Part shown: positions 1 through 20,004 of the stretch, piece after piece
How positions within the stretch are numbered: the first letter of the stretch is position 1
Layout of the letters: the number at the start of each line of letters is the position of its first letter
From: a virus
IMG/VR virus record: IMGVR_UViG_3300023116_000467
Location: 1 to 20,004 of that record
Length of the DNA: 20,004 nt
Direction: 5' to 3' (one strand)
The notes under the pieces: generated by a model
Databases searched by the model: none
Seen by the model: only the letters and a program-made list of their open reading frames with translations
Told to the model about the DNA's origin: nothing
Position numbers and translations under genes: made by a program

Positions 1-3000
1 TGGCAATCTCTTCGTATCTACCCAATTATCCGATGCTGGGTCAAGTGTGATGTTACCAATATAGGCAAAAACATTGAATGGGTTGACATTTTCAACACGA
101 GATGCATAAGGTTGCTCAATGAGAGTATCTTCAGTATAAGGAAGAGAAATAATCGCACCTTCGTCATCAGCAGATGTAGCACCAGTTCTCTTAATATTGG
201 TAGAAAGAGATTCATTAAGAATCAGAGAAAATGCAGTGGTGTAATGAGAAGGTCTAGCAACACCTTCCTCAAAATCTAATGATGCTGAATAATCTACAGA
301 AGTTGTAGAAGATTTAGAATGATCTGTAAAATCGTCTACAATAAAACCATTCTTTAGACGATTTTTACCAGTTGCATCCAAAACGTCAACATTAAAGGTA
401 TCACTCTCAAGCATATTGAGAGAGGTATAATATTCAACCTGGTCAATTCTCTTTTCCAGTTTGCCGATATCTCTCATAGTATATCGTCTATTTTCAGACT
501 TAGTGATGATAACATCATCATTGGGGTCAAATCCATATGGAGCATGACGCAGCGTCGCTAAAAGCATACTCTCTTGCAAATCATCAGGTTCACCAGGAAG
601 TTCTTCAGATTTACCTTTAATAACTTTAAATTCTCCATCTGGAGATAAGAACAGTTTATCAATTCTAGGAAGATACCAATCAAAGTCGCAACGGAAATCA
701 CTGTCGATTTTTGGAATATCGAAAAGTGTCGCTCCAGGAGTCCCTGATGTTGGATATACTCTGGATTTAAAATCTAACGTAGAGCAGTTAACATATGCAG
801 GAGATGCTACAGAACCAGCACCACTATAAAGATTTTTAACACCAGGTCGGAAATCTAAATAATCGGACAAGAATCTTCCATCATATGTTGGAACATCGCT
901 ATAAGATGTGTTCAAATAAGATTGTCCACCAAAATAATCACCTGTTGCAGAATGATTGTAATAATCAAATACAATCTTTAATTTTCTAATAGGGGTAGCA
1001 ACACCCTTTTCTCTTACGATTTTAGAAATTGCGTATTGGAAGTTGGTTTGTCCAGTTTCCAATCTATACCTATCAGTGATTACCTTAGAACCAGATTCAA
1101 CAGAACCAACAGAGTCATTAATAATGGCAGAAATAGATGCACTAGTACTATCAAAACCATCGATAGTTTCACCTGGTTGGAATGAACCATCCAAATAAAC
1201 AATACTGAGTTTTAAAGTACTTGAGTTGAATCCAACAACTCTACCTCTAGCTAAAGATGTTCTACCACTAACAATGCTTCCTGTAGCAAAGAACGCTGGT
1301 TCTACTAAAGTAACAGATGGAAGAACTGGATCGTTATCATCTAAAGATTCATAAACGGCATGAATCTTATATGCATCTGTTAAACCTAACGAAACATCAA
1401 CATCTTCAATTCTTGTTCCATATAAATTGCTGTAAAGCAATCCATAATTTTGTTTGTCTAAGTTTTGAATAGTCTTGTTAACTTTCAAAACGAACATCTC
1501 AACAGGAGATTTTGTTTTTCTCTGTGTTACGTTTTTGGAGATAGTTGCAGTAACCTTAACAGAAGTAATGTTTGTCAGATTATCAACTTGAAGTGTAGTT
1601 CTATCACTTGTTGTAAACGATGTATATCCAATAGCATTGCTATCGCTAGTATCAATGGTAACTTGATCGCCAACAGGATGCGTTGTATTAGTACCTGCTA
1701 AAACAGTAATGGTGTAATTTGAATCTGAGATTGCTTCAAACTGCTCATTTTCAGGTAATGTGATTGAGATAGAATTTGATGCCACTGTTTGAGCATCAAA
1801 AGTTCTTCTGACAATCATAGATTCGTCAGAAATGCTCTTTACAAATGGTTTTGCTAACTGACTAAACAAGTTTGCATTATTAGAACCTTCAAGTCTGGAA
1901 CGATAACGAATTAGAGTAGATACTGTTCCAGCAGAGGGAGCTGATGCACCAGGAGTTACATTAACTACTTGGTCTGCAAAATTGAAAATAGTTGTTGGAT
2001 TAGAAGTCGTTAGTGCAGTTGGGTCAACGTAGTCAACGTCAACATAGTCAGTGCTATTAAAGTAGATTCTATCTCCAGCTCTTAAGTCTGCGGCGAAATT
2101 GGAATTCAAACCAGTAATAGTTTCAGACCCAGCAGTAGCAACATAAGTAAATGTTTGACCCTGTAAAGTTTTTTCATCTTGAAGAACTACGTCTGCAGTA
2201 AATTCTATAGATGTCGTTACTTCATCTCTAGCTGCAACTTGTCGTACATCGGAGAACTGATAGACATGCACTTCCTGAATAGTATCAAGTTGAGTGCCAT
2301 CTAAAGTTAAAATTTCACCTTTTACAAAAGTACCTTCTACCTGATAAAGTTGAATGTGGTCTGCATTAGTGACAGCATTTACAATGTATCCTTTTGCACC
2401 AGAAGTAGAACCAACTAATAATGAACCAGCATCAATAGTTTGATTGCTATCTAATTCAATAATTACAAACATTTGCACATCAAACATGTGCAAAGAATAT
2501 TCATCATCAGCGTTTCCAAATGTATTATCTGGGTCTTCAATGTGCTCTAATGTTGCAGCTCTTGCATAACCAATGATATTTCCCTGAGCAGTGCCTTGAG
2601 AAACTGTGAAGTTATCTCTCAGTTCAAGTGTCTGATAAGCATTAGAGATACTAGAACCGCTAATATTTAAAAATCCATATACATTTTCTACTACACAATT
2701 ATTACCCAGAGAGAACGGAACAATTACGTTCTGTGCAGAATCGGTCTCTCTTGGTTTATCAAGGTCAACATATGTTGGAGAAAGTGTTTTAACCCTATAT
2801 CCCCTAACATATGCAGTACCTGGTCCAATTTCAATGGAGTACAAGTCCTCACTTGCAACTGCACCGCTCGAAGTGATACCTCCAGCGGAATAAACTCCAT
2901 TATTAAATCCATCATCTAAATTCTCTCTCATGTCAACCGTAAAATCGGTGACCACATAATCGCCAGACTCTTCGTATGTTCTAAGAGCCATTGACTTTTC

Positions 3001-3885
3001 AAGTTCATCATATGCACTACGGTCAACAAGTTTTTCAACTTTAGTGCCATTAATACGAAGTAATTCAATAAAATCTTTATCTGCATCATCCGTAAGGAGT
3101 TTCTTAATTAGATTTGCAGTGATTCTGAATCTATGAGCACCAGGAGCAGCATAATTGGATGTTCCTGCAGCATTATCATTAAGACTTAAATCGTCTTCTG
3201 GGGTTACAATAGATTCCAGGATTTCTAAACCAATTCTATATCTGGGTTCCGTTCCATATTGGTCAAGGAGAACAGTTTGATATGATACGTCTACGAAGTA
3301 ACCTCTAATAAAATAAACGCCTGGTTGAATATATGCAACAGAACCTTTTTGTAGAGCACTAGTTGGAAGAAGTTGTGCAAAGGGAGAACCAATTTCAATC
3401 AGAGTTGTACCAAATGTAATTTCAGTATCAGTAATTAACTGTTCGTTATCTTGGAAGGTTGCCTCAGTACTTTCATCACCACCAGATTGAATATACTTGA
3501 TATAAAGTGTAATATATCCCTTGTCTGATTCAGTATCAGAAATAGTGAATAGAACTTTTGCCTTAACGCCTGTTGTTAATCCCTCAATAATTTTTCCGTT
3601 TAATTGAGTTCTATAGAGTTCAACATCAGCACCCAAGAACGATTCTTGAAGCATGATAGCATCGACATTCAGGTCATATCCTACCTGACCTGGGATGACC
3701 ATTGCGCCATCTTTGAACAAGTGTTGTCCGACATTCTCAATCTGATTCTGGAGAACCGACTGCATTGTTGTAAGTTCTCTCGCCTGAATTGGAAATCCAG
3801 GACGGAAGAGAACTTTATAAAAGTTCTTATCCTTATCGAAATCGTCGTAATAAGGAGTGACGTTAAGGTTGGTGTTCTGTGCCAT
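1..3885 (-). CDS. DUF4815-like virion structural protein, 3' end outside window
   Basis: An uninterrupted frame runs from ATG at 3885 off the window at base 1, giving 1295 residues that end ...DTKRLP with no stop. The N-terminus (MAQNTNLNVTPYYDDFD) is followed at about residues 22-60 by FYKVLFRPGFPIQARELTT and an amphipathic stretch ending in MVIPGQ. I recognise this as the conserved start of the DUF4815 structural family found beside gp8 in cyanomyoviruses. The rest is beta-rich, with modules of the form 'V.G.TS.A.G.V......L......G.F..GE', as in LLVGSTSGAKGYI and IVSGRTSLARGRV. No signal peptide or membrane segment is seen. The start codon overlaps the gp8 stop by one base (TAATG), and there is no good Shine-Dalgarno sequence, so translation is probably coupled to gp8. 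Its position after gp8 is that of T4 genes 9-10, but I see no T4 homology. The role is inferred to be baseplate or tail periphery; the precise function is unknown. Confidence 0.85.
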   Translation of the reverse strand, partial: MAQNTNLNVTPYYDDFDKDKNFYKVLFRPGFPIQARELTTMQSVLQNQIENVGQHLFKDGAMVIPGQVGYDLNVDAIMLQESFLGADVELYRTQLNGKIIEGLTTGVKAKVLFTISDTESDKGYITLYIKYIQSGGDESTEATFQDNEQLITDTEITFGTTLIEIGSPFAQLLPTSALQKGSVAYIQPGVYFIRGYFVDVSYQTVLLDQYGTEPRYRIGLEILESIVTPEDDLSLNDNAAGTSNYAAPGAHRFRITANLIKKLLTDDADKDFIELLRINGTKVEKLVDRSAYDELEKSMALRTYEESGDYVVTDFTVDMRENLDDGFNNGVYSAGGITSSGAVASEDLYSIEIGPGTAYVRGYRVKTLSPTYVDLDKPRETDSAQNVIVPFSLGNNCVVENVYGFLNISGSSISNAYQTLELRDNFTVSQGTAQGNIIGYARAATLEHIEDPDNTFGNADDEYSLHMFDVQMFVIIELDSNQTIDAGSLLVGSTSGAKGYIVNAVTNADHIQLYQVEGTFVKGEILTLDGTQLDTIQEVHVYQFSDVRQVAARDEVTTSIEFTADVVLQDEKTLQGQTFTYVATAGSETITGLNSNFAADLRAGDRIYFNSTDYVDVDYVDPTALTTSNPTTIFNFADQVVNVTPGASAPSAGTVSTLIRYRSRLEGSNNANLFSQLAKPFVKSISDESMIVRRTFDAQTVASNSISITLPENEQFEAISDSNYTITVLAGTNTTHPVGDQVTIDTSDSNAIGYTSFTTSDRTTLQVDNLTNITSVKVTATISKNVTQRKTKSPVEMFVLKVNKTIQNLDKQNYGLLYSNLYGTRIEDVDVSLGLTDAYKIHAVYESLDDNDPVLPSVTLVEPAFFATGSIVSGRTSLARGRVVGFNSSTLKLSIVYLDGSFQPGETIDGFDSTSASISAIINDSVGSVESGSKVITDRYRLETGQTNFQYAISKIVREKGVATPIRKLKIVFDYYNHSATGDYFGGQSYLNTSYSDVPTYDGRFLSDYLDFRPGVKNLYSGAGSVASPAYVNCSTLDFKSRVYPTSGTPGATLFDIPKIDSDFRCDFDWYLPRIDKLFLSPDGEFKVIKGKSEELPGEPDDLQESMLLATLRHAPYGFDPNDDVIITKSENRRYTMRDIGKLEKRIDQVEYYTSLNMLESDTFNVDVLDATGKNRLKNGFIVDDFTDHSKSSTTSVDYSASLDFEEGVARPSHYTTAFSLILNESLSTNIKRTGATSADDEGAIISLPYTEDTLIEQPYASRVENVNPFNVFAYIGNITLDPASDNWVDTKRLP

Positions 3886-5417
3886 TAGAATTCGATTACG
3901 ATTTTGATGTCTTCTACCTGGTCGTTTGCACGACTAATTGATCTCCTATTATCTATATAAACAACGTTACCGCTGTTTGATTCAATCTCGGGTTTTGCAT
4001 AACCATTGTTAAACCTCATACCCAAATCATATTCAGTGTTGTTAATAGTTCTGGAAGATGAATTAGGAACGGCAGGAAAATTAACATCTGGTTGACCAGC
4101 AGCACCAGATGTTGCTCCATTGATAACGTTAGAACCATCAAACTCGTTTTGTGTACCAGTAACCTCTGGGAAAATACCATCTGTAGCATTCTGATAATAC
4201 TTCAGAAGTTTAGTAGTAGGATTCCAAGAAATTACTCGACCACGAGCAGTAACGTTTGTTCCACCAACGACTCGGGTTTGAGTGATAATTTCATCAGGTA
4301 CATAATTACCTTGGAACGTTGGTGAGAAGATAACTGCCTTTGTAGCAGATACAGTCAAATCAGAAATAAGTTCTGCTGTACCAAACTTCAATGGATTGGT
4401 AATTAAACCAATACGACGATAGTCGTTATCGATTGGGAAATCGCCAGCACCCTCGTCATAAGAGAGTTTAGCGTTTACCATAACACGAAACGCACCAAGT
4501 TCAACGACAGAATCTGCACCATGACCACCAGGAGGGGGAATGATGACATCAACCTGAGCACTGTTTCCAGTACCAATTCCAGTGATGTTATCAACACTAA
4601 TCTTACCAAAAGTGTATCCAGTACCACCAGAAGTTACTGTCGCAGAAATAATTTTACCACCATCAACAACAATGGAAACACGACCACCAGTGCCATCACC
4701 GTTGATAGCAACGTTGTCATATGTTCCATTATTGTATCCTGTTCCCGCAGCATTAATAACAACGGTATCAATTTCACCAGCAACAGCATTAGTTTTTACC
4801 GCATCATTGGTAAAAACTGGCATGTAGTCATTGGAGAAAAACTTAAGAACCGAAGCAACAGGAATAGTATACATATACTTCCAGCGATATCCATCGCCAG
4901 TAGTAATAATACTAGTAGAAGTACCAGTAGGTTCAACCGTAGAGGGTTTGCCGTTGGGGTCTGAAGGAGAAGTACCGTTGTAAATAACTTTATATACTTG
5001 ATATTGAGAATTTACAACATAAAAATCGGAGTCATATAATTTAGTCGCACCAGAAGAAGCAGTCTTACTAGGAGAGTAATCATGACGATACATGTCATAT
5101 GTAAAACCAAGTCCACCAGTAGTTTGTTCTGGAGAAACCCAGTCAATACGACGAACAACCTGAACAGTATCAGCAGCAAGAACTCTTTTCAGAGAAACCA
5201 TGTCGTCATAAGAACCAGAAAATTCTTGAAACGAATCAACCGCTTGAGGGGGAGAATTCTCATTATCCCAGGGTTGAGGTCTTCCAATGAAAAGATATAA
5301 CCTATCACGATTTGTTCCTGCGACATCATCACTATCGGTAGGATTTGGTCCTTCCAATGATTTGATAAATTTTCTCGCAGAAAAAATTCTAAATTGATCA
5401 GTAAGTAGAGCTGCCAT
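3885..5417 (-). CDS. 8: Baseplate wedge protein gp8 (T4 gp8 homologue, enlarged)
   Basis: A 510-residue protein; T4 gp8 has 334. Motifs match T4 gp8 in the same order: IGRPQPWDNEN at 44-54 (T4 FGRSEPW...NEN), VVRRIDW near 87-93 (T4 IPRRDW), GDGYRWKYMYTIP near 174-187 (T4 GDGYVWEYLFEIP), IGLITNPL near 338-345 (T4 ISIITNPL), and the C-terminus GNVVYIDNRRSISRANDQ then ending VIEF (T4 GEMIYMENRPPIIMAMDQ, ending LFTF). In T4 gp8 is a dimeric part of the baseplate wedge that joins the gp7-gp10 complex. The extra length is mainly two inserts: a GxGY beta module at about 211-297 and a 'RGRVISWNPTTKLL' module at about 356-422. The start is fixed by an in-frame TAG two codons upstream of ATG 5417. A late-promoter motif and a distant AGAGGA lie in the 39-base gap ahead of it. 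It overlaps the next gene by one base. Confidence 0.93.
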   Translation of the reverse strand: MAALLTDQFRIFSARKFIKSLEGPNPTDSDDVAGTNRDRLYLFIGRPQPWDNENSPPQAVDSFQEFSGSYDDMVSLKRVLAADTVQVVRRIDWVSPEQTTGGLGFTYDMYRHDYSPSKTASSGATKLYDSDFYVVNSQYQVYKVIYNGTSPSDPNGKPSTVEPTGTSTSIITTGDGYRWKYMYTIPVASVLKFFSNDYMPVFTNDAVKTNAVAGEIDTVVINAAGTGYNNGTYDNVAINGDGTGGRVSIVVDGGKIISATVTSGGTGYTFGKISVDNITGIGTGNSAQVDVIIPPPGGHGADSVVELGAFRVMVNAKLSYDEGAGDFPIDNDYRRIGLITNPLKFGTAELISDLTVSATKAVIFSPTFQGNYVPDEIITQTRVVGGTNVTARGRVISWNPTTKLLKYYQNATDGIFPEVTGTQNEFDGSNVINGATSGAAGQPDVNFPAVPNSSSRTINNTEYDLGMRFNNGYAKPEIESNSGNVVYIDNRRSISRANDQVEDIKIVIEF

Positions 5418-8400: not shown

Positions 8401-10082
8401 ACGTTTGTTAAGTCTAGTCTAAACGCAACATGTCTGTTTGAAGTACCACTGCCAAATCTAAAATGTCTACCAATATCAAATCCACCAGTTGAACCTGTAC
8501 CAGTTCCACTGTCTTCAAGAGTGGCACGCAATAGTTCTCCAGAATATTGACTCATCAAATCATCTGGACTGATTGTTGTTTGACCCTTGAAGAACTCACC
8601 AATATAATAATCATTTGGTGTTTGTTCGTCATCAACTACAGAACTAAGAACCATATAACCTTCATGTCCTTCATATCCAGACATATACCTATGGTTCTTA
8701 CAATGATAGTAGATTCTATCATTTTCATCTGGATTCATAATGAATATCGCCTGATATTCATTTTCATAATCTGCTGCTGGAGCAGCAGATACACCTGTAC
8801 TATTGTAGTATAAACTTCCTCCTGCTAAAGCACCATCTCGACTGGTACTAAATTGCATTGGATGTCCAAGAGGATGAATTTCAGATGGTTGATTAGATAC
8901 ATCACTTTGATTCCAACGAATCAAATAGTTCCTCTGAACTTGAATATTTTCTGGGGCAAAATAATACTGTCCTGGTACAAATGGACCGAATTCAGAAGCT
9001 TCTGGTCCGAAATCAATATAGAATATTCCATTGGGAAAAGTTATTGGAGCAGAACCAACCCTAAATTGAAATCCTGTTGAACCCAAAATCAAATCATCAG
9101 TAGAAAATAATTCCGTTGTTCCTACAAGTCTCAAATAGATATGAGTAATATCATTCTGAGAATTTCTTACGATTTTAGCAACTGTCCCTCTAGCATTTCC
9201 ACCAATTTCCTCACAAACTCTACCAACTTCAAGAGGACCAAGGGATTCGTCAAGGTCTGCAACTTCAAGCAAAACATTATCATACTCGACCTTTACATTC
9301 CAGGTAAACTGTTTAAAGGTTCCCCATTCAAATACCCCATTGTCCAAAGAAAATTCATCTAGTGTTTTACTACTGTGGTAGTAATAAACGTCGTCTTCAG
9401 TTATAGCGTCATATTCATTTGCGTTTTTTACATAAGGATATTTTACAGTGTCAACACTAAATCCTGGGGTAGTTCCTCCATCAGTGTCCCAATCTGGAGT
9501 ATGAATTAAACCACCATTTGATAAAATACCAGTTACCTTATCTTTTTGCTCTACTCTACCAGTTCCAAAGGGCACATCCTTTCCTGCCCTAAGAATGAAA
9601 GTTTGGTCAAAATTTCTATCAGTAAGAGGTCCACCGCCAGGTGCTCTCTCAGATTGAAACGGAGTTGGTTTTGGGTGATTATCAGACTCAATTCTTAATC
9701 TATCTGTAATATTTCCACTTGCGCTCAATCCAAATGTTCCTCTGGTAAGAGAATTTGGATGTGATTGCCAAATTCTATTGAAATCAAATGAAGTTACAAC
9801 GTCAGGTGTTTCCTGTTCTGGAATAATTTGAAGTCTTAATGGGTCATACCCTCTGCCCCTATCTAAAACTCGGACATGGATAATCTTACCAGAATCTTCG
9901 TCAATAATTGGATACAGTAGTGCTTCTGCAGTGGGAATGCCACATCCAGTAATGACTAGTCTAGGAGGATCTGCAACGTCATATCCAGACCCACCATCAA
10001 CAACTTTTACAGCTTTAACACCGAAATTATCATCGAAAATTGGTTCGATGACAGCGCCAGTTCCAGGTACAGTTCTTGCCAT
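5457..10082 (-). CDS. Large modular structural protein with cupredoxin-like and YHYH domains
   Basis: 1541 residues between gp7- and gp8-like genes, so inferred to be a baseplate or tail appendage protein. Order of parts: GxGY beta repeats (about 22-95); a '[19 protein letters not shown]' module (about 285-345); a cupredoxin-like fold (about 348-482) with His407 and Cys461-x2-His464-x2-Met467; a beta-rich linker; the first part of a YHYH-type domain (about 640-705, [18 protein letters not shown]); a second cupredoxin-like fold lacking the ligands (about 708-840); the rest of the YHYH-type domain (about 842-906, [13 protein letters not shown] then [11 protein letters not shown]); three GxGY repeats (about 931-1080); a '[10 protein letters not shown]...GLTRG' module (about 1106-1155); and a final GxGY pair (about 1428-1520). 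No signal peptide or membrane helix is seen. The start ATG lies 5 bases after the previous stop, without a clear Shine-Dalgarno sequence. Cyanophages carry a large structural gene called vrlC in this cluster; I cannot tell whether this is it. Confidence 0.85.
6840..7290 (-). repeat. Tandem GxGY beta repeats in the 1541-residue protein
   Basis: Three to four tandem units at about residues 931-1080. The core is 'V.NPG..Y..PP..I..GGGG.GA.A.A.I..G.V..I', seen as [40 protein letters not shown] and [17 protein letters not shown]. Further copies lie at the protein's two ends (about 22-95 and 1428-1520). A beta-solenoid or stacked beta fold is likely, by inference. Confidence 0.7.
7365..8165 (-). other. 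YHYH-type domain split by a degenerate cupredoxin-like fold
   Basis: [20 protein letters not shown] (about residues 655-678) and, about 170 residues later, [34 protein letters not shown] and [11 protein letters not shown] (about 845-906) are the two halves of a YHYH-family domain, in which they normally follow closely. Between them, at 708-840, sits a cupredoxin-like module recognised by [14 protein letters not shown] and [11 protein letters not shown]. At the usual copper-ligand sites it has DQFILF in place of GHPL and [13 protein letters not shown] in place of the Cys-His-Met loop. Domain names come from recalled family patterns. Confidence 0.6.
8637..9040 (-). other. Cupredoxin-like domain with intact type-1 copper ligand pattern
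   Basis: Residues about 348-482 of the 1541-residue protein. His407 (in [12 protein letters not shown]) and the loop [10 protein letters not shown], with Cys461, His464 and Met467, give the His...Cys-x2-His-x2-Met pattern of type-1 copper sites. The following [13 protein letters not shown] closes the fold. Copper binding is not shown by sequence alone. Confidence 0.65.
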
Positions 10083-10087
10083 TTATT

Positions 10088-11308
10088 TTAACTTACTACT
10101 GTAATTGTTCCGTTCATTGCAGCGTGAAGAGTACACTGATAATAAAGAGTTCCAGGAGCGTCCATAGGAACAGTCCAATACAATACATTAGACCCGCTAC
10201 CAGACTGACCACTAGTATACGGAGTTCCAGACAATCCCTGTGTACTTTGAATCCTAAAGGGATGCGCTCCACCCTGCACAGAGTTGTCAAATGCATATGT
10301 TGCACCTCTCATGACATAAATTGTGGGGTCATTCTGCGTTGTTGGAAATCCAGGACCTGAAAATGTATAATCAGAAGTGCCATTTGCATTCAATTCCCAC
10401 CACGTTATTGGACTACGTGTTACAACCCAAGAAGTTCCATTCCAGAACAAAGAATCGCCCTGAGTAATCCCTGCAACGTTTGTGTCTGTTAACGCAGCCA
10501 GAGTAGTTGTTAAAGTGCCATCAAAGTTAATGGTAAGAGTATCTCCTGTCACCGATGTGGTGATATTTGTACCACCTGCAATGGTTAAAGTATCGGTTTG
10601 TGTGTTTGCTGTAGTAGAACCAGTGTCGCCAGAAACGGTAGCAAATAAATTGATAGACCCTAGTCCAGCATCATCATTAGCAGGTGCCCAGTTAGTGCCA
10701 TCCCACTTTAAAACCTGACCTGATGTAGGTGCTGTAGTTGTAGTATCTACATCGGAAAGGGAATCAATGTCAGAATATTCTGTTAAAATTTTAACTCTTG
10801 CATCACCAACACCACCTGCAGTGATGTTCATATTTACATATGGACTATCATCGCCATCTACAGTATAAAAATATCCAGGATATGTCGCTGCAGCGGGAGC
10901 AACACCTGCTGAAGCATACTCATTTATATACTGAATTTTTGTTGGAAAATCTACTGTTCCAGTAGAACCGTCAAATATAGATGTTACTCCACCAACACCA
11001 AAAATTAAATCTCCAGTTCCATTAGTAGCAATATTAATATTGCCATTAGAGGAAGAAATAATTGAGTTTCCTGCAACATCTAAAGATGATGTCAAAATGC
11101 TGTAATCTGATGGAACAAATGTAGTTCCATCATATCTTAGAACCTGCCCAACTCCAGCATTAGAAACGGTAATGGCTGTTGTAGAACCATTGCCAATTGA
11201 GTTATACAGTTCATCAAAATTATCGTTAATCTTGTCGCCACCAGCACGTAAAGTATCACCAGTGTTATCATTAGCGACAGCGCCAAGATTTAGAGATTGT
11301 TTAGCCAT
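10088..11308 (-). CDS. Baseplate-attached fibre-like protein: gp9/gp10-type N-terminus plus cupredoxin-like C-terminus
   Basis: 406 residues. The N-terminus SLNLGAVANDNTGDTLRAGG then DKINDNFDELYNSIGNG matches the first 40 residues of T4 gp10 (INIGNVVDDGTGDYLRKGG, then KINENFDELY) and the similar start of T4 gp9, segments that anchor these trimers to the baseplate wedge. Then come fibre-type repeats: GQVLRYDGTTFVPSD, GQVLKWDGTNWAPAND and GDSLFWNGTSWVVTRS. The C-terminal 90 residues (about 315-406) form a cupredoxin-like module: YTFSGPGFP, RGATYAFDN, His349 in AHPFRIQSTQG, and Cys392-x2-His395-x2-Met398 in LYYQCTLHAAMNG. The gene follows the gp7-like gene, and T4 gp7 and gp10 are direct partners, which supports wedge attachment. 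A late-promoter motif lies 20 bases upstream of the ATG; the nearest Shine-Dalgarno-like sequence (GCGAG) is weak. The full T4 gp9 or gp10 fold is not evident, so no symbol is given. Confidence 0.85.
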   Translation of the reverse strand: MAKQSLNLGAVANDNTGDTLRAGGDKINDNFDELYNSIGNGSTTAITVSNAGVGQVLRYDGTTFVPSDYSILTSSLDVAGNSIISSSNGNINIATNGTGDLIFGVGGVTSIFDGSTGTVDFPTKIQYINEYASAGVAPAAATYPGYFYTVDGDDSPYVNMNITAGGVGDARVKILTEYSDIDSLSDVDTTTTAPTSGQVLKWDGTNWAPANDDAGLGSINLFATVSGDTGSTTANTQTDTLTIAGGTNITTSVTGDTLTINFDGTLTTTLAALTDTNVAGITQGDSLFWNGTSWVVTRSPITWWELNANGTSDYTFSGPGFPTTQNDPTIYVMRGATYAFDNSVQGGAHPFRIQSTQGLSGTPYTSGQSGSGSNVLYWTVPMDAPGTLYYQCTLHAAMNGTITVVS

Positions 11309-11328
11309 TACTCGCTACGATTTTTAGT

Positions 11329-11336
11329 TATTTATT
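11329..11336 (-). promoter_or_regulatory. T4-type late promoter motif upstream of the 406-residue gene
   Basis: The minus strand reads AATAAATA in the 41-base gap between the gp7-like stop (TGA at 11352-11350) and ATG 11308, ending 20 bases before the start. It fits the NATAAATA form of T4-like late promoters. The gap is AT-rich, so a chance match cannot be excluded. Confidence 0.5.
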
Positions 11337-11349
11337 AGATTAGTAAGAG

Positions 11350-14300
11350 TCATACAATAATTTCAGGGTCAACCAGTTCTTCACCATAATCAGCAAGATT
11401 TGGAGGAGTCCAGTCATCAGGAACTTCAGTTTCAACTACAATTTCTGGATTTTGGTATCCAGAACCAGGAGAAACAACTTCAACACCAGCAACACCAACC
11501 AGTGCCTTAACTTGACCATCGAAACCTGAAATAGAATCGAGTCTAACGCTAGGTCTAGAAGTATATCCAGAACCACCAGCAGTGACGGAAACGGTCTCAA
11601 TAGTTCCAGATGTCAAATTAGCTTGACCCTGAGCACCCTGACCAAATACAGAACCAAGATAATCAAATGTGATGAGAGAGTTTGAAGATTCAATAACAGC
11701 GACTTCACGGTCTTCAGTTTCACCCTGAATTTGAATCAAATCACCAGGTTCAATAGGAGGAATAACCTCAGCAGCATCAACGTCTGCTTCAGAACCAACG
11801 TAAGAAAACGCAACAAATGTGGAACCTACGCGAGGAATTTCAGAGAAGATGATTCTAGAACCAACAATCTCAAAACCAATTCCAGGTTCCTGAATAACTC
11901 CATTAAGAGAAACAATGATATTGTTCTCTGGTCTAATTGTTGCAGATTGTACACCTTCAGTAAGGGTCAGAGAGTAGAAAACATCATTACGCTTAAGGTT
12001 GAAAGATTGACGTAAGGAGTCAAACTCGAACGAAATATCATCCAGTTGTCTAAGTTTACCAGCATAGAATCCAGTAAATGCAGATCCAAGTTCTGGTGGT
12101 TCGGTAAACTGAATAGTATCCGAGAATGCAGTAAATGCATTTGTAGCACCAGGAGGTTGCAAGACGCCATTAATAAAGATTAACATATGACCCTCTGGGT
12201 CTGGAAGATATGGAACACCATTATCGGTGGTCAGTTTGAATGATGTTTGAACACCATCAAATCCTTTAAATGCTCTCTTAACTCTTGCCTTAAGATCAAC
12301 AATTTCGAGAATTGCTGCTTCAAAATTATCTGGTCCAAAGATTGCATCCTTAACATCAAATGTTCCAGCAATATTGCTCAGGTATAATCTCTTATTGATT
12401 CCAACATCTCGGATATCTTGAACTAAAGCAGAAGCAGCGCCATCAGTCACAACTCGGGTAGAAATGGACGCATATCCAACAGGGAAGTTGGAAGCAATAC
12501 CATAATCACCAACAATATCACCATTTTGGAAATTACCTTGATATTCACTAACGTAGATGAAATTACTATCAAGGTCAACCTCAGTAATAATGCCGTAAGT
12601 ATTTGTATCTTGAATGCCAGCAACAACCTTATAAAGTCTATTGCCTACGGTAAACTCTTCTAAATTGCTAAGAATGCTAATACCAAGTCTTACATATCCA
12701 CTAGAGGCAATCTTATCACCAACACCAATGTCAAGACCAGCAAATTTAGTAACATCGAGATACTGTCTAGAAGATTCTGGATAAACAACCGAAGTTGTTT
12801 CAAATGTTCCTAGTAATGTCTCAGTGTCAACTGTCAATTTACCACCAGTGTTAGATGTTACTGATGCTTCAGTTTTAATGAAATCTGTAGGTGTTGCGGT
12901 TTGACCACTGGTATAACCTTTAAATGCAATATCTTCAACAAAAGTACCTGCAAGGTCAATAATATGAATGCGATTTTCAATAGAACTAATTTGAGCAGTT
13001 GTTCCATTATCGTCACCAACAATTGTGTCAGTAATTGCCCAGGTCCCTGCAGTTACCTCAACATCGAGGTACTTAAAGTTCTCATCCTCATAGAATCCAT
13101 AAACAGTTCCAGTTGTTCCAGGTGTTCCTTGCTTACTGACACCTTCATTCATAGTGAAAGGACCATCAGTAATATCACCATCAATGCGGAATCTCTGATA
13201 AACTTTAACGACTCTACCTTCGTTTAAGGTAATGAATTGTGCCTCAGCAAAAGCATCACTTTGATTACCATAGATATAGTCAGCAGGACTCAATCCACCA
13301 CCAATTCCTACTGGGATGGTTCTTTCTCCATATGTCTTAGTTGGAAGACTGATGCCATTGATAGTGGTCAGACCAGTATAGTAACTATCTACTGCTAACT
13401 GATTAGATATGATGGTTATACCATTTCTAATTAAAGCAGCAATAGAATCTGTAGAATAATTTGCTGCTTGAGTAGAATCATAGAAACTAAAGAATCCAGC
13501 GTTACCAGAAGGAGAAAGTAATGTATTGTCAAGAGAATTTGTCATAAACTCTTGGAGCAATTCAAGAGCAAATGTCTTAATATTAAATTCAGTGTCAGAA
13601 TAGAATATTTCACCAGAAACTGCGGTGTATGGGTCAAGTGTCCCCTTATTGAGTTTCAGACCCCAAGCATAAACTCCCTTTACATTATCCCCAGTGTATG
13701 TTGCAGCACCAGTTTCATTTCTAACATAAACTGTAGAGCGCAATTCAGAAACACCAAAGGAGAATGTACCAGTAATGTATACTCTATACCAACCATTTCC
13801 ATATGGAATTAATCCATAGTCATCTACGGTTATACCACCTTGAGGAGTAAATGGCGAAGCAGAATATGTTCCATCGGAAAGATTCGCATCAAAGAATGCA
13901 AGTTTTCTTGTAGAAGCACCAGCATCAAGACCCATTTCCCAACGAATTCTCGAATATTCGCCTGCTTTGAGGAAAATAGAAGTTGTAAATTGTTGGGTGG
14001 TATCACCAGTTGGAGAACCTGTATCGAAACTTTCGACATCCGAATCAAATCTGACCGTTGTTGTATCAAAGGTTTCATAAGCAGTAAGATTGTAATTCTT
14101 GTATCTCCAATGTTCAGTAAGATTATTGGTGGAATAAATCTTATCTGCACTTAACGTTCCATCAGGTGCTGCTGTAATATTTTGAGTTACACCAGTTGAT
14201 TGTCCAGTTGAAAGAGCTAAAACTATATTCTCTGGATTAGTCAGTAAATTAATACCAGAAACTTGCCCTGTGATATTAGATGTGGTAACTCTTGCTAAAG

Positions 14301-17300
14301 CAAGACTCTTAACATTAGTTGGATTAGTATACCAAGTAAAGACATTACTAATTCCACCAGCATTGACAAAAGGACTAAATGTGCTAGAAAGTGCAGGTGT
14401 TGCCCCAGCAGCAGTAATAGAATGACCACTAGGACCATTATCTACAGAAGAACCTTGGCAGGTCAACAATACTGTATTGGGTATGGAAGTTAATGGTACT
14501 ACTGATGGAGTAAAGTCTGCAGTGTAAACAGCATCGGTTACAATTCTGAAGTTGGAAATGTGACCCTCTGCTCTAGTGCTTCCACCAAGGTTGTTAAATG
14601 CAACTAAGGGTTCAATAGCACTAGAATAATCTGTTGCCCATGTATCAGAAATTCCCTGCTGCACACCATCTACATAGATTCTACAATTGCCAATAGAAGT
14701 ATCATCTCTAACGATTGCAACATGATACCAGGTATTCAAATTGAAATTGTGGGCACGAGTAAAGAAGGTTCCAGAACCACCCCAGAAACCAATCTGAGTC
14801 GCACTAAGGAAAAGATTTAGATTATCCTGAACCGAACCGCTTACTTCAAACGTTGTACGACCAGTCCAATAAATCCATGCTTCAAGGGTAATTGCACCAG
14901 TTCCAAATTGGAAATCGGAACTACTTGCTACTCTGAGATATTGAGTATTTCCATCAAATTCAACCGAACCCCCAAGACCAGAAGCAACATCAGCAGTACC
15001 ACTATTAGTACCACCAGTTAAAGTATCACCAGATACCCAAGGAGTTCCTGTAAATGGTCCTACAACCATGAATGTATTTTTCTCAGAATATTCAAGAATT
15101 GTTGCAGTTCCACCACCGCTGGATGTAACTACCTCACCAACTTCAAATTCACCCGAAATATTTTCGATGAACACATCATATGCATCAGATGTAGAGGAAG
15201 TATCAGTTGTGATGATATCATGGGCAATATTTTCAACCATGTCATCAAGGAACGAGTCATAAGTCCAAGAACCAGAACCAAACTGATTGTTAACTGTTTG
15301 TGTAATTTCTTCTCTATAGTAATTCTTATTATAGAGAATATTCTTAGCAGCACCTCTGCCAGCATCACCAGAAGGAGCAAGAATTCCTACTGCAATATCG
15401 ACCAATTCATTAAGTCTGGTGATTACCTCCGAAATATTAGATGGAGTCTCCGAATCTCTATATGGTGTTTCATCAGTATACTGTGCATTATAATTTGGAG
15501 AAGATGCATTAGCACCTTGCTCATAAAGATAGTTGTTCAGAGCATATTCACCAATAACTTTCAGTTGCTCAATTGCATAAACAGTAGCAAGTAACTCATT
15601 CTCAATATGATTTAAAGTGAGATCAGAATTCAAATAGAATTCCATATTGGCAATCGTGCTATTATTACCACCAGTCTGTAAGTCGGAAATGATTGCAAGT
15701 AACAGATACTTAAGGTCTCTCTGACATACAACTTCACCATCATTACCAGGATACGTTAATGCAGAATAATTTGTTCCATTTAAGTTGTACGTAAACTCTG
15801 CTGTGGTAAGTCCAGTAATCTCTTCAGCGATATAATCGCGGTTGAAATACAATCTATCAGCACCAATAGCATAGTCGGATGATGTTGGTGCGATAATGTC
15901 ATTCAGTGTATCGATTAATGTATCGATTGCATCTTGAACATTCTGACATCCACCTGGGTCATCAGTAATGCCCCAATCACCAGTGATGATATCATCAGTA
16001 TTGGTATAATCAAGGTCGCCAGTGATTGCTTGCTTCATGTAGAATCCAAGACGCTCATGAGCATATACAGACTGGAATACCTGTAGTCTAATATGAATCA
16101 ATTCATCGTTTGCTCCAAGATAGAACTTGGCAGCCTGAACGGTGAATTCATTACCTCCGTCTGCAATATCCTTAACAATTTCATTAAGGATAAGAGTGAG
16201 GTCTGTCTTACAACGAAGAGTTCCATCTCCAGTTCCACCTTCATTACGTGGCATTTCCAAGTAAAGGTCTGGATATCTAGTAAGAAGGTCTGCAGATGCT
16301 TTATCAACAATAACAGATGCATTAGCACGAATGAGGTTTGCAGCATCAAAGAAGCGATATCTGTTATCCAAATCAATCTGATTTGTGTACAGAATATTAT
16401 CAGTACCATTATGATAAGTAGAATCAAATGGGACTTCATAGAATGCATCTACGGTTCCACCAACATACTCAAACGCAGGTTCGACCTTAGTTACAGTTCC
16501 AAGATGGTCTCCATCGAGAGTTGCACTTGGAGTGTCTGCTTCAGAAAGAGTATCCGTCAGGATATCAATCAGGTTATTGATTGTGGTGTAAACGTCAGCA
16601 CAGTTGTTAAGGTCAGCAGAACCAGTTTCATAAATGTTAGTTGCATCAGTGTTGAGAGTCTGAGTCAATCCATGGTTGCCCTGAACTGTCCAAGCAACGT
16701 TATTAATAATATACTGAAGCATTTCATCAACTTTATTAAATGCCCAGATAGTCTCAGTAACTTCAGTCTCAATGTGATTAAGAGTTACAGGATTTTGAGT
16801 TCTATCAACATAAATTGCTGCAGCATCCCACATGTGGCTGTTAGAACCATTCTTAAGGTCTTCAATAATCTGGTCTAAAACATCACGAATGTCATCTTCA
16901 CAATTAACGTTACCACCAGGAATAACCAGAGAAGGATATTGCTGGAGAAGCAGATATACCGTTTCTTGAGCGATAAAGTCTTTATTAAGTCTAATGGACT
17001 CTGCTGCATTATAAACTCTGTGAGAGTTGCCCGTGAATCCAGCAGGAGCACCAGCAAGTCTAGAGGTTGCTAAGATTGCATCATTATGGAACTCTTCACC
17101 ATTTGTGAGGGACTCTCCACCAGACCAATCTTCAGTATAAGTTTGAGTATCTTCACCATCTAAGTGAAGAAGCAGTTTGGTGTTGCTATCACCTTGGAAG
17201 ATACCGTTGCGTGGTGTAAACGCTGCGGTATAACGTCCAGTGTTAGAAACTCTAAACTCATCAATATGACCAGAGAAAGGATTAGAACCAGCAAAGTTTG

Positions 17301-20004
17301 CTCCAATAAAGAGACGTTTTGTAGAACCTAAATCGTTACTGTTAGTGGTGCTTCCAGCTTCAGAACCATCAACAAATAACTTCAAATCAGTACCACTTCT
17401 AGTGATAGCAATGTGATACCAAGTATCTGCAGAAAGAGTTGTTGCACCAGATGTAACAACGTCACTGCCACCGATATTAAAGCGTACTTGATTTGTGGCA
17501 ATATAAAGTCTACCAGCATTTGCATCAGCACCACTATCTCTCGTATCAAAGATATGTCTATCACCAGCAGAGACATCATCTGGACGAATCCAGCACTCAA
17601 CAGTAAATGCTCCTGTTCCAAAACCAAATTCAGTAGAAGTTGGAATGGAGAGATAATCAGTAGTAGCATCATCCAATAATAAGGAAGAATCACCAAATTT
17701 CTTCTGAGCAGTATCTAACTGAGCACTATTGTTGAAAGTTGCTGTATGATAATCCTGACCAGAGTTAAGGATTCTACCAACCTTACCAAGATAAATTGTG
17801 GAACGTGCTTGGTTATATCCAATAACTTCTGCCTTAGTATCTCTGGTCTTAATAATTTGACCAGGCGAGAAGAATCCTTCACCTTGTTTAGAGGTAAATG
17901 TTACTTTTCTAATTGTTATCTCTTCAGAAGCAGTAAATTCTCCGTTGTTATTTCCATATTCAATTTTATAGTTTCGGATGAATTCATCTTCACTGAAAGC
18001 ACCAGATTCGTTATCATATGGAATGATATAATTGTTGATAGATTCATTTGCAGGGAATGAAATATCAAAGGCAGTAGAATTATCATCAAAGTCAACAATA
18101 TTAACTTGAGACTGTGAAATATCATCAAGAACAACGTTTGGATATGTTGTGGAAGTAATTCTGTTGAACAGCAGTCCAAAGAACGAAGAACCTTCAGAAA
18201 TATCAACCTGAGAAATAAATTCTTCAGTTACGGGGTCTTGATAAACTGTAGTGGAGGTGACACGAGCAACAACAGCGGACTGAGAACCAATGATAATATC
18301 GTTAAGTTCAATATCAAAAAGACCAGGGGTAGACTGATAGGTTCCTGTTGTCTTACTTAAAGTAAGGTCTCCTGTAACCTCAACTTGAGTTCCGTAGATA
18401 GGAGTTCCTTCTAACTTAGATGCAGCAGCAGTTCCCGATTGTCCTCTTAGAACTTCAAGAGTTGTAGACTCATTATTTTGAGTAATAGAATTAACAACAA
18501 AGATTTCAGAACCAAACTGATAACTCTCACCAACTTCAAATACATCACTTGCAACAGGAGTATTTGGTGTGTCCGAAGCAATTACTTCAAAGGTATCTGT
18601 TGCAGCACCAATAGTATATCTTAACTCTGCAATAGGAGTTTCCTGTCCTGTTTGTAAGTTGATTTGCTCAACAACAGCAGTATCTCCAGTAAGGTTTGTT
18701 ATTTGCTCACCAAAGATAAACAGTCCAAGATTATCAACGTCAGTGATTGTATTCAAGTTAGATGCAAATCCAGTCGTACTTACAATACAAAGTTCTCCAA
18801 GTTGGAAAGTACCCTCAGAAACATATCCAAAAATACTATTACCAATAACATTGGTAACAATAAGTTTTGCATTAGACGCTGTACCACTTAAAGTATTACC
18901 AATGTTAGGGAAGATTCCACTAATATTGGTGAAAGTCATTTCAATCGTATCGATTTGCTCAACTGTTACGTTGACGTACTTAACGCTTGCAGGGGGAGAT
19001 GGTGGTTCACTAAAGACAATGGAATCATTTTGAATTTCAAAAGCAGTATCTGGGGTTTGTACAACGCCATTCAACACAATCATTAACTGGTTTGCGTTAG
19101 CAACAACAGTTTCACCATTAACAGTTAATGGGAATGCGATTCTTTCACCATCAAAGAAGCTAGAAATATCATCCAATCTCTGAACAACAGAGGTTAAAAT
19201 ATTCTCCGAGGACGTAAGTCTCTTTTGACGGAAGAGAACTTCAGTATTATTAAACTCAGAATAAATTGGTTCAACAAGAGCAAAGTTTTGAATATTAGGA
19301 ACAATTGCCTCTCTAGCAAGTTCAACCGATTTGACTAATTCGAAATCGGTTTCCTTATTTGGAATAGACCCATACTCGTTAACACTAAGTTCACCAAAAA
19401 CCTTAAAGGATGCTGGGTGAACATTTCTAATTAAAATGTCTTTCCACTCACCAATAGATACAGCAGACTTAATTGCATAAGAGAAGTCTTGATAGTAGTA
19501 AGAGTCCTGAATCTTTTGAATAATTTCAGAAGGCTTACCTACATCATCAATGAACTGACCAGTTGTCTTAGTAATAGAACCAATTTCAAGAACACCTTTA
19601 GCAACTTTAAGATCGCTAATTACACCAGAAGACTTGGAAATAGCGCCTGTTACTGATTGCCCTTCTGAAAAATCACCATCATAATCAACAATCTTTAAAA
19701 TTCTTGGTCCAACTTGCCAACCAGAGTTAGTAGAGACATATCCAGTTGCAGTAGCATTTTCAAGAGAATCACCTTGATAGACCAATTCTCCTTCTAAGAA
19801 TGTAGATGTAATGACATTTGCTTCTGCAGCACCACCGAAGGACGACGTTAATACTTGTTGACGACCCGTTCCAGCATTTACAAAAGTAATCGCATCACCA
19901 AGTTCTGCATTAGTAGGTGTAATTGCAAGTTTTAATTGGTCATCCTCAAGAGAATTTGCAGTTCCAGAAATTGCATAATAAGTCGTAGTGCCATTAAGAC
20001 GACC
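11350..20004 (-). CDS. 7: Giant baseplate wedge protein, gp7-like C-terminal segment plus ~2,600-residue modular extension; 5' end outside window
   Basis: An open frame fills 20004-11350 (2884 residues, TGA stop). The frame stays open to the window edge, so the real start lies upstream; TTG 19785 is internal. Residues about 161-206 (DSYYYQDFSYAIKSAV, then WKDILIRNVHPASFKVFG) resemble the T4 gp7 C-terminal segment (SRSYYVMKIKS, WKSDVIRFVHPVGFGFIAI). In T4, gp7 is 1032 residues and ends about 150 residues later; here some 2,600 more follow. Order: NGVxQ module (279-350); beta modules (about 360-750); LamG 1 (751-951); helical repeats 1-4 (995-1610); LamG 2 (1673-1868); CBM-like domain (1911-2128); remainder of helical repeat 4 (2130 to about 2220); beta modules; two NGVxQ modules (2576-2736); GxGY repeats (2798-2860). 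In T4, gp7 organises the wedge and binds gp10, gp8 and gp53. The extension is inferred to project outward and may bind surface sugars. The gp7 identity rests on a short match plus gene order. Confidence 0.8.
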   Translation of the reverse strand, partial: GRLNGTTTYYAISGTANSLEDDQLKLAITPTNAELGDAITFVNAGTGRQQVLTSSFGGAAEANVITSTFLEGELVYQGDSLENATATGYVSTNSGWQVGPRILKIVDYDGDFSEGQSVTGAISKSSGVISDLKVAKGVLEIGSITKTTGQFIDDVGKPSEIIQKIQDSYYYQDFSYAIKSAVSIGEWKDILIRNVHPASFKVFGELSVNEYGSIPNKETDFELVKSVELAREAIVPNIQNFALVEPIYSEFNNTEVLFRQKRLTSSENILTSVVQRLDDISSFFDGERIAFPLTVNGETVVANANQLMIVLNGVVQTPDTAFEIQNDSIVFSEPPSPPASVKYVNVTVEQIDTIEMTFTNISGIFPNIGNTLSGTASNAKLIVTNVIGNSIFGYVSEGTFQLGELCIVSTTGFASNLNTITDVDNLGLFIFGEQITNLTGDTAVVEQINLQTGQETPIAELRYTIGAATDTFEVIASDTPNTPVASDVFEVGESYQFGSEIFVVNSITQNNESTTLEVLRGQSGTAAASKLEGTPIYGTQVEVTGDLTLSKTTGTYQSTPGLFDIELNDIIIGSQSAVVARVTSTTVYQDPVTEEFISQVDISEGSSFFGLLFNRITSTTYPNVVLDDISQSQVNIVDFDDNSTAFDISFPANESINNYIIPYDNESGAFSEDEFIRNYKIEYGNNNGEFTASEEITIRKVTFTSKQGEGFFSPGQIIKTRDTKAEVIGYNQARSTIYLGKVGRILNSGQDYHTATFNNSAQLDTAQKKFGDSSLLLDDATTDYLSIPTSTEFGFGTGAFTVECWIRPDDVSAGDRHIFDTRDSGADANAGRLYIATNQVRFNIGGSDVVTSGATTLSADTWYHIAITRSGTDLKLFVDGSEAGSTTNSNDLGSTKRLFIGANFAGSNPFSGHIDEFRVSNTGRYTAAFTPRNGIFQGDSNTKLLLHLDGEDTQTYTEDWSGGESLTNGEEFHNDAILATSRLAGAPAGFTGNSHRVYNAAESIRLNKDFIAQETVYLLLQQYPSLVIPGGNVNCEDDIRDVLDQIIEDLKNGSNSHMWDAAAIYVDRTQNPVTLNHIETEVTETIWAFNKVDEMLQYIINNVAWTVQGNHGLTQTLNTDATNIYETGSADLNNCADVYTTINNLIDILTDTLSEADTPSATLDGDHLGTVTKVEPAFEYVGGTVDAFYEVPFDSTYHNGTDNILYTNQIDLDNRYRFFDAANLIRANASVIVDKASADLLTRYPDLYLEMPRNEGGTGDGTLRCKTDLTLILNEIVKDIADGGNEFTVQAAKFYLGANDELIHIRLQVFQSVYAHERLGFYMKQAITGDLDYTNTDDIITGDWGITDDPGGCQNVQDAIDTLIDTLNDIIAPTSSDYAIGADRLYFNRDYIAEEITGLTTAEFTYNLNGTNYSALTYPGNDGEVVCQRDLKYLLLAIISDLQTGGNNSTIANMEFYLNSDLTLNHIENELLATVYAIEQLKVIGEYALNNYLYEQGANASSPNYNAQYTDETPYRDSETPSNISEVITRLNELVDIAVGILAPSGDAGRGAAKNILYNKNYYREEITQTVNNQFGSGSWTYDSFLDDMVENIAHDIITTDTSSTSDAYDVFIENISGEFEVGEVVTSSGGGTATILEYSEKNTFMVVGPFTGTPWVSGDTLTGGTNSGTADVASGLGGSVEFDGNTQYLRVASSSDFQFGTGAITLEAWIYWTGRTTFEVSGSVQDNLNLFLSATQIGFWGGSGTFFTRAHNFNLNTWYHVAIVRDDTSIGNCRIYVDGVQQGISDTWATDYSSAIEPLVAFNNLGGSTRAEGHISNFRIVTDAVYTADFTPSVVPLTSIPNTVLLTCQGSSVDNGPSGHSITAAGATPALSSTFSPFVNAGGISNVFTWYTNPTNVKSLALARVTTSNITGQVSGINLLTNPENIVLALSTGQSTGVTQNITAAPDGTLSADKIYSTNNLTEHWRYKNYNLTAYETFDTTTVRFDSDVESFDTGSPTGDTTQQFTTSIFLKAGEYSRIRWEMGLDAGASTRKLAFFDANLSDGTYSASPFTPQGGITVDDYGLIPYGNGWYRVYITGTFSFGVSELRSTVYVRNETGAATYTGDNVKGVYAWGLKLNKGTLDPYTAVSGEIFYSDTEFNIKTFALELLQEFMTNSLDNTLLSPSGNAGFFSFYDSTQAANYSTDSIAALIRNGITIISNQLAVDSYYTGLTTINGISLPTKTYGERTIPVGIGGGLSPADYIYGNQSDAFAEAQFITLNEGRVVKVYQRFRIDGDITDGPFTMNEGVSKQGTPGTTGTVYGFYEDENFKYLDVEVTAGTWAITDTIVGDDNGTTAQISSIENRIHIIDLAGTFVEDIAFKGYTSGQTATPTDFIKTEASVTSNTGGKLTVDTETLLGTFETTSVVYPESSRQYLDVTKFAGLDIGVGDKIASSGYVRLGISILSNLEEFTVGNRLYKVVAGIQDTNTYGIITEVDLDSNFIYVSEYQGNFQNGDIVGDYGIASNFPVGYASISTRVVTDGAASALVQDIRDVGINKRLYLSNIAGTFDVKDAIFGPDNFEAAILEIVDLKARVKRAFKGFDGVQTSFKLTTDNGVPYLPDPEGHMLIFINGVLQPPGATNAFTAFSDTIQFTEPPELGSAFTGFYAGKLRQLDDISFEFDSLRQSFNLKRNDVFYSLTLTEGVQSATIRPENNIIVSLNGVIQEPGIGFEIVGSRIIFSEIPRVGSTFVAFSYVGSEADVDAAEVIPPIEPGDLIQIQGETEDREVAVIESSNSLITFDYLGSVFGQGAQGQANLTSGTIETVSVTAGGSGYTSRPSVRLDSISGFDGQVKALVGVAGVEVVSPGSGYQNPEIVVETEVPDDWTPPNLADYGEELVDPEIIV
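11425..11610 (-). repeat. GxGY beta repeat pair at the C-terminus of the gp7-like protein
   Basis: Two units: SVTAGGSGYTSRPSVRLDS and VEVVSPGSGYQNPEIVVE, about residues 2798-2860. They share the 'G.GY..P.(I/V)' core with units in gp8 and the 1541-residue protein. Confidence 0.65.
11795..12275 (-). repeat. Two tandem NGVxQ modules
   Basis: Two units of about 75-80 residues: FDGVQTSFKLT...LIFINGVLQPPG...DTIQFTEPPELGSAF and FDSLRQSFNLK...IIVSLNGVIQEPG...SRIIFSEIPRVGSTFVAF. A third, distant copy lies at 18955-19168 (LMIVLNGVVQTPD...DSIVFSEPPSPP). T4 gp10 has a similar segment (VRFNGILQE), so this is a recurrent tail-protein module. Confidence 0.7.
13620..14270 (-). other. Carbohydrate-binding-module-like domain
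   Basis: Residues about 1911-2128. It has the recurrent phage pattern of INLLTNPENI, GTLSADKIYS, a central TTSIFLKAGEYSRIRWEM, IPYGNGWYRVYITGTF, and a closing VYAWGLKLNKGTLDPYTAV. This arrangement is typical of jelly-roll CBM-like domains in phage fibre and tail proteins. Sugar binding is inferred from the fold type only. Confidence 0.6.
14400..14985 (-). other. LamG-like (concanavalin-type) domain 2
   Basis: Residues about 1673-1868: VEFDGNTQYLRVASSSDFQF, GAITLEAWIYW, NLNTWYHVAIVRDD, CRIYVDGVQQG, EGHISNFRIVTDAVYTADF and VLLTCQG. This is the classic LamG-type order (strand, 'EAWI', 'WYHVA', 'VDG', 'I..FRI'). Confidence 0.85.
15176..17020 (-). repeat. Four diverged helical repeats, the last one interrupted
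   Basis: Units begin near 17020 (AAESIRLNKDFIAQETVYLL), 16350 (AANLIRANASVIVDKASADL), 15873 (GADRLYFNRDYIAEEITGL) and 15360 (GAAKNILYNKNYYREEI). Shared features of each are a Cys followed by an acidic helix (Cys1035 in NCEDDIRDVLDQIIEDL, Cys1265 in RCKTDLTLILNEIVKDI, Cys1427 in VCQRDLKYLLLAIISDL), then GGN or GSN, an 'AA.(F/I)Y' segment, an L-x-H-I motif, and a closing helix such as DTLIDTLNDIIAPTS. Unit 4 has Tyr1582 in place of the Cys and stops after DIITTDTS. Unit length varies (Cys-to-Cys 230 and 162 residues). Confidence 0.75.
17150..17750 (-). other. LamG-like (concanavalin-type) domain 1
   Basis: Residues about 751-951: FNNSAQLDTAQKKFGDSSL, YLSIPTSTEFGF, GAFTVECWIRPDD, SADTWYHIAITRSG, LKLFVDGSEAGS, SGHIDEFRVSNTGRYTAAF and KLLLHLDG. 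A textbook LamG-type pattern that ends just before helical repeat 1. Confidence 0.88.
19385..19520 (-). other. T4 gp7 C-terminal-like segment
   Basis: Residues about 161-206 of the visible protein. Pattern 'S.YY..F.Y.IKS...I..WK..(V)I.R.VHP..F..F' aligns by eye with the T4 gp7 segment containing SRSYYVMKIKSNL and RWKSDVIRFVHPVGF. The preceding beta-rich stretch (GQSVTGAISKSSGVI) also parallels T4 gp7 (GQTIYTATGRCNVTYI). Confidence 0.6.

Follow-up and report, generated by a model that had tools for sequence, protein, structure and literature searches.

In bacteriophage T4, the baseplate wedge protein gp7 is described as a monomer present in six copies per tail, with one domain that binds gp9 and another that swings outward when the baseplate opens (PMC3004832). 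The T4 protein is 1,032 residues long and is represented in Pfam by the families Gp7_helical, Gp7_5th and Gp7_6th. Its orthologue in phage XM1, gp17, has 242 residues; according to PMC10457771, a loop at residues 80-106 interrupts its core domain and binds a set of six tail spikes, whilst the C-terminus binds a second set, the spikes themselves being a separate protein. In AlgoCIS, which is not a phage and has gp6- and gp7-like parts fused in one protein, the gp7-like part of Alg12 is reported to be a re-engineering hotspot to which tail fibres attach (PMC8894135). A very large gp7-like protein of cyanophages is already in the public annotation: it comprises 6,283 residues in Synechococcus phages S-M1 and QB2, and 7,312 in P-SSM4, where it is annotated as 'gp7, baseplate wedge initiator'. 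The gp7 gene of S-SZBM1 encodes 6,619 residues, the length of a protein in Table 1 of PMC9146016, which lists 71 peptides and a coverage of 13.5% for it in purified virions and describes this phage as having no long tail fibres. A second gene annotated as gp7 in P-HM1 (PHM1_095, L091:36510-40255) has 1,248 visible residues including one LamG domain; Pfam detected no gp7 core match in this visible part, and the label looks wrong. The existing annotations of the giant proteins supply a name but not the split architecture set out below, and no description of a split gp7 was found in the titles and abstract openings that searches of open-licence literature listed, subscription papers being outside the scope of that search; given this restriction, the absence is only weak evidence of novelty.

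The window, meaning the whole stretch of 20,004 nt analysed here, is an entire virus record. Its minus strand is open for 2,884 codons from position 20004, the window edge, to 11350, and the other two frames of the same strand contain 105 and 413 stops over this region. As the window is the complete record, the giant gp7 gene is truncated by the end of the contig. A sibling IMG/VR contig (L005) is 98-100% identical at the DNA level over residues 1-900 of the window's frame, and comparison of 1,392 codons between the two revealed 150 synonymous and 74 non-synonymous differences, implying that the frame is constrained at the protein level. The first 368 residues match 403 phage records, mostly those of Synechococcus and Prochlorococcus phages, with S-M1 and QB2 being the nearest of the listed isolates (91.6% over these residues). 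Across its visible length, the protein is homologous to S-M1 gp7, with 79-81% identity in two main blocks. It belongs with the giant gp7 proteins of the Kyanoviridae (S-M1, QB2, P-SSM4 and S-SZBM1), sharing their split core and homologous extension, the middle of which varies between members. The features of the window are listed in the table.

Table. Features of the window (all on the minus strand; residues are numbered from the start of the visible part of the giant gp7 frame).
Feature	Position	Strand	Basis or remarks
Giant gp7 gene, 3' part, 2,884 codons plus stop	11350..20004	-	approximately residues 3291-6283 of S-M1 gp7
Domain V remnant (second half of the T4 gp7 domain), residues 85-150, directly before the HP segment	19555..19752	-	profile matches
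HP segment of the gp7 core (positions 235-281 of the 284 in PF23786)	19387..19515	-	profile search and hhalign
LamG1, residues 779-922	17239..17670	-	Laminin_G_3, E 4.8e-40 for the protein
Repeat region, approximately residues 995-1600	15205..17022	-	off-diagonal similarity; 16 of 26 relatives aligned
LamG2, approximately residues 1640-1833	14506..15087	-	second Laminin_G_3, placed via S-M1; 7 of 26 relatives aligned
CBM-like stretch, residues 2005-2122	13639..13992	-	resembles RcGTA head spike fibre, E 3.1e-5
Conserved extension end, residues 2601-2858	11431..12204	-	26 of 26 relatives, 84%; up to 91% per 75-residue step
gp9/gp10-like baseplate protein	10088..11308	-	T4_gp9_10_N, E 5.8e-10; phrog_677
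YHYH-domain baseplate protein of 1,541 residues	5457..10082	-	Pfam; phrog_708
gp8-like baseplate wedge protein	3885..5417	-	Phage-Gp8, E 2e-18
DUF4815-containing VrlC-like protein, incomplete at the window end	1..3885	-	homologous position annotated VrlC in P-SSM4

The original prediction, which was of an open frame with a gp7-like segment at residues 161-206, holds, the segment being matched by the Pfam family PF23786 (Baseplate_wedge). A search of the whole window gave a single match, with an E-value of 4.5e-5 calculated for one record and a score of 16.7 bits that falls short of the family cut-off of 27; in a protein scan of the frame, the match covered residues 164-206 (E 0.087, 12.7 bits). 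The domain V remnant preceding this HP segment matches profiles of T4-type gp7 and the PDB gp7 entry 9f4a, each match being weak singly, and is aligned in 25 of 26 relatives with 84% identity. In S-M1, PF23786 matches three collinear pieces, at residues 3-50 (E 0.0029), 679-729 (E 1.8e-8, exceeding the cut-off) and approximately 3454-3495 (E 0.086), and at E 0.1 it has no match in three of the seven cyanophage references. A core profile of five T4-type gp7 sequences identifies residues 694-723 of S-M1, containing 'DFYSAKGT' (the FYxxKG segment), with a domain E-value of 1.1e-6, followed by the HP segment at 3465-3493 (E around 0.1), such that the order found in T4 is kept. Over the seven references, the whole-protein E-values for this profile range from 8.2e-8 to 0.042, and it alone finds the place of the HP segment in four of the seven with domain E-values of 0.1-0.5; these values were computed for a database of seven sequences, and the other in-house E-values likewise refer to databases of few sequences.

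Both segments appear specific to gp7 rather than the neighbouring wedge protein: using hhalign, the FYxxKG segment scores P 90.8 (E 1.2e-6) against gp7 and P 0.2 against T4-type gp6, and the HP segment P 77.3 (E 2e-5) against T4-type gp7 and P 0.3 against gp6. When a profile led by the window was searched against 177,635 PDB sequences at E-values up to 10, just two matches were returned, both to gp7 (E 0.024 and 0.2), neither matched stretch being significant by itself; an upstream profile searched against the same number of sequences gave four matches, with gp7 ranked first and second (E 0.0026 and 0.0031). Plain sequence searches of the PDB returned nothing at E 1 for residues 1-3956 of S-M1, and no gp7 for the phage 7757 protein discussed below, which matched an unrelated receptor alone (E 0.2). 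Alignment A7 combined the window with 39 out of 58 loci from its class and with 30 of the 36 others sampled, whilst A8 comprised 36 of 60 listed sequences. An AlphaFold model of window residues 1-300, based on 70 sequences, had a mean pLDDT of 37.8. That of the N-terminal part of a relative from a class lacking the first insert reached 56.7; a search of the PDB with this second model found no fold match at E up to 0.001, the top-ranked entry being an unrelated-looking phage capsid chain (E 0.018).

The giant proteins share with T4 gp7 the FYxxKG segment, the HP segment and the domain V remnant, in the same order, but they differ in how far apart these lie. FYxxKG and HP are separated by 149-150 residues in all five T4-type gp7s, compared with 2,788 in S-M1 and 1,639-2,884 in all seven cyanophage references. 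The cyanophage insert occupies the place of T4 domain V (PF21427, residues 766-861), and the compact form of that domain between the two segments is absent in S-M1, only the remnant before HP being present. Neither residues 1-640 of T4 gp7 nor its domain VI have a counterpart at a domain E-value of 0.1 in the seven cyanophage gp7s, although phage 7757 has one weak match to domain VI. Hence the earlier view of a gp7 with a C-terminal tail is right as regards the gp7-like segment and the very long extension, but wrong in treating the core as otherwise ordinary, since it is split by around 2,700 residues upstream; likewise, the STKG motif was expected just before position 20004, but comparison with S-M1 places it approximately 2,590 residues further upstream, counted from the end of the window. 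An ordinary gp7 core lying just upstream of the window, with the extension as its sole addition, would account for the HP segment and long extension, both of which are real; this arrangement is nevertheless extremely improbable, because FYxxKG is found about 2,790 residues before HP both in S-M1 and in the complete 6,166-residue frame of the sibling contig (FYxxKG at 699, HP at 3486, gap 2,787). Judged by sequence, an insert of about 2,700 residues divides the gp7 core, which is not that of a normal gp7 with a tail, and the contrast with T4 that had been proposed from the window is upheld by the full-length relatives.

The extent of this splitting was surveyed using cyanophage-seeded searches, taking the best 80 loci of each and no more than 10 kb either side of the match, such that far larger gaps could escape. 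Counting only frames with both motifs gave 207, or 160 after deduplication (153 from IMG/VR and seven from annotated phage records). In these 160 marine frames the distance ranges from 1,639 to 2,883 residues, and falls into classes of 1,639-1,762 (32 frames), 1,877 (one), 2,172-2,343 (44), 2,412-2,439 (22) and 2,784-2,883 (61), the last being that of the window. In the window's protein the gp7 core comes in two separated halves, of which the window itself includes that with HP, FYxxKG being seen in the relatives; the insert is of approximately constant length within lineages. The survey set aside 203 frames with a single motif, 22 having HP and 181 FYxxKG, and all but two of these run past the end of the locus. 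The remaining two, a 5,048-residue frame (L038) and a 705-residue frame (L163), are complete with one core segment each; they may represent a broken gene, a faulty assembly or a genuine division into two genes. These two frames, together with the origin of the window as a metagenomic fragment, are what could be adduced for an assembly artefact having fused several genes, but the same continuous gene is held by isolates, and PMC9146016 reports the 6,619-residue protein from virions, so we regard such an artefact as having almost no chance of being the explanation.

Three shorter proteins have the core segments in the same order as the giants, without the giant extension. A previously unannotated 587-residue frame of Desulfovibrio phage 7757 (L090:11968-13728), in which the core parts are close together, scores 36.5 bits with the T4 core profile, 40.0 with the cyanophage FYxxKG profile and 63.7 with the cyanophage HP profile; it is a gp7 of compact form and provides a link between those of T4 and the cyanophages. 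In Stenotrophomonas phage Moby, a 503-residue 'hypothetical protein' encoded between gp6 and gp8 (L416:13965-15476) is evidently also a gp7, with a gap of 334 residues that includes a GxGY module. The 1,016-residue 'putative structural protein' of Pelagibacter phage HTVC008M (AGE60389.1, L418:33435-36485) has both gp7 core segments. With gaps of 181, 334 and 598 residues respectively, the proteins of 7757, Moby and HTVC008M form a graded series between T4 and the giant split gp7.

The literature offers a different candidate for the gp7 role. In PMC7029224, gp7 is stated to be absent from pelagi- and cyanomyophages and apparently replaced by VrlC, and PMC3037559 places gp7 in a non-cyanophage core set; were VrlC to fill this role, the two short motifs in the giant protein would be there by chance or be generic, and the single-motif scores against T4 are indeed weak. 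However, the giant has both gp7 segments in order and specific relative to gp6, gp7 tops its PDB search, and the phage 7757 protein provides a bridge to T4. The gene order in QB2 and P-SSM4 is gp25, gp6, giant gp7, gp9, YHYH protein and gp8, placing the giant between gp6 and gp8; the window covers only the gp9-like to gp8 side of this order. Furthermore, the best matches of the HTVC008M VrlC are E 2.2 for FYxxKG and E 0.09 for HP, whereas the protein encoded between gp6 and gp8 of that phage gives 1.5e-22 and 1.9e-20 (all in small databases). The VrlC-like part in the window has FYxxKG at E 0.36, no match to HP and one domain-V-like module of 8.7 bits. It is consequently very unlikely that the giant protein is something other than gp7.

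Growth of the protein has occurred at more than one point. Relative to the other classes, that of the window has around 500 more residues before FYxxKG, containing GxGY modules 39-48 residues apart. In S-M1, GxGY occurs eight times in residues 1-697, where shuffling gave a mean of 0.3 and at most 4, ten times in the insert (shuffled mean 1.1, maximum 5) and twice in the C-terminal part (shuffled mean 1.0, maximum 3); these counts show modular repetition in the first insert, to some extent in the second, and not in the extension. An origin of the insert through copying of domain V hairpins was considered, but is unconvincing: S-M1 has the motif three times, and shuffled sequences, which average 0.46, also reach 3. 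A YHYH domain was found by Pfam within the insert in all seven references, whereas LamG was detected in S-M1 and P-SSM4, the latter scanned over its first 4,000 residues, and not in the other five. Conservation was profiled across 26 relatives, all of one class, that of the window. Against these the insert aligns near-completely, with 54-92% identity per 75-residue step, and its YHYH domain is present in all 26 with 78% identity.

Past the His-Pro of the window the extension amounts to 2,688 residues, close to the 2,600 or so first estimated, whilst five T4-type gp7s end 145-214 residues after theirs, much as had been anticipated. The two LamG folds proposed within it were both recovered as Laminin_G_3 matches, the better at residues 779-922, as was the CBM-like stretch at 2005-2122, and the suggested repeats are visible as off-diagonal similarity at 995-1404. 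LamG1 is aligned in 25 of 26 relatives at 54% identity and the CBM-like part in all 26 at 48%. In the window's class, the extension is thus modular, with conserved ends between which middle modules come and go, and the length after HP varies from 2,503 to 3,729 residues (27 frames). In the 1,639-1,762 gap class, by contrast, this length stays within 1,585-1,668 residues (20 frames), and complete ends are too few for a judgement in the other classes; variability of the extension may therefore not be universal. Between the window and its sibling contig, identity drops from around residue 900, in LamG1, and the downstream genes have also diverged (approximately 75% over positions 8883-13229). A clean exchange of the tip is therefore rejected in favour of ordinary mosaicism, one junction of which falls within gp7. 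Within the repeat region, residues 1219-1248 (approximately positions 16263-16350) match the Pfam Phycobilisome family (E 2.5e-5 in the window, 2.3e-6 in S-M1); the match spans 30-55 residues, and although the hosts bear phycobilisomes, it is probably due to chance.

The neighbouring baseplate genes share PHROG profiles with gp7, and the VrlC-like protein of the window has the domain-V-like module mentioned above. Since the neighbours at 1-3885 and 5457-10082 have beta modules and YHYH in common with gp7, modules may move among baseplate genes. Such sharing would also be expected had gp7 grown through passive accretion of beta modules that brace or thicken the baseplate, with adhesion located elsewhere. 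The over-representation of GxGY in residues 1-697 and the insert of S-M1 fits this, as does the steady extension length in the 1,639-1,762 class, and other baseplate proteins of the window, those with YHYH and DUF4815, could adhere instead. The lectin-like folds, and an extension whose middle varies strongly between conserved ends, are less easily accommodated, and we consider passive accretion unlikely, if still deserving of serious attention.

The reading that we favour, and think reasonably probable as a whole, is that the window encodes the distal half of a cyanophage gp7 with a split core, whose inserts form arms, the outer of which contacts the cell. The core elements (the helical pair, the FYxxKG helices, domain V and the HP segment) are retained but set apart within the polypeptide, for the window's lineage by approximately 500 residues before FYxxKG, 2,700 including YHYH inside domain V, and a further 2,700 replacing the domain VI end of T4. 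In the folded wedge, these pieces could reunite on gp6, with the inserts leaving as covalent arms at sites corresponding to those where XM1 gp17 binds its tail spikes; by analogy with PMC10457771, the two spike-binding sites of gp17 may parallel the two sites of growth in cyanophage gp7, although in XM1 the spikes are a separate protein. The inner arm, whose length and sequence are both conserved, would serve mostly as a scaffold of the baseplate. The outer arm, in which LamG and repeat modules vary between conserved ends, is suggested to contact the cell surface and to pass movement to the wedge and sheath, which might act as a trigger.

It is the parallels with XM1 gp17, T4 gp7 and AlgoCIS that lead us to read the cyanophage protein as a wedge core with fused arms. 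The lack of long tail fibres in S-SZBM1, as described in PMC9146016, fits contact through the outer arm without proving it. The original suggestion, in which the extension would supply the outer and adhesive part of the baseplate, is plausible, and cyanophage gp7 probably combines a wedge core with peripheral modules that would contact the host. A stronger version, in which wedge core and host recognition are united in one polypeptide, gp7 has taken over, within domain V and at its C-terminus, the work of T4 gp10-gp12 and the fibre connectors, and host range can change through the swapping of modules in this one core baseplate gene, is possible but more doubtful.

On sequence grounds, cyanophage gp7 is enlarged approximately six-fold, with thousands of residues added at a few fixed points; a protein at the core of baseplate assembly evidently tolerates insertions of this size at such positions. 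These results speak against the view, as expressed in PMC7029224, that gp7 is missing from pelagi- and cyanomyophages. The split, graded and modular nature of gp7 designates residues to test in host recognition. Little is understood of how cyanomyophages recognise their hosts. In the ocean viruses of Synechococcus and Prochlorococcus, some of the apparatus that touches the host may reside in the core of the baseplate itself.
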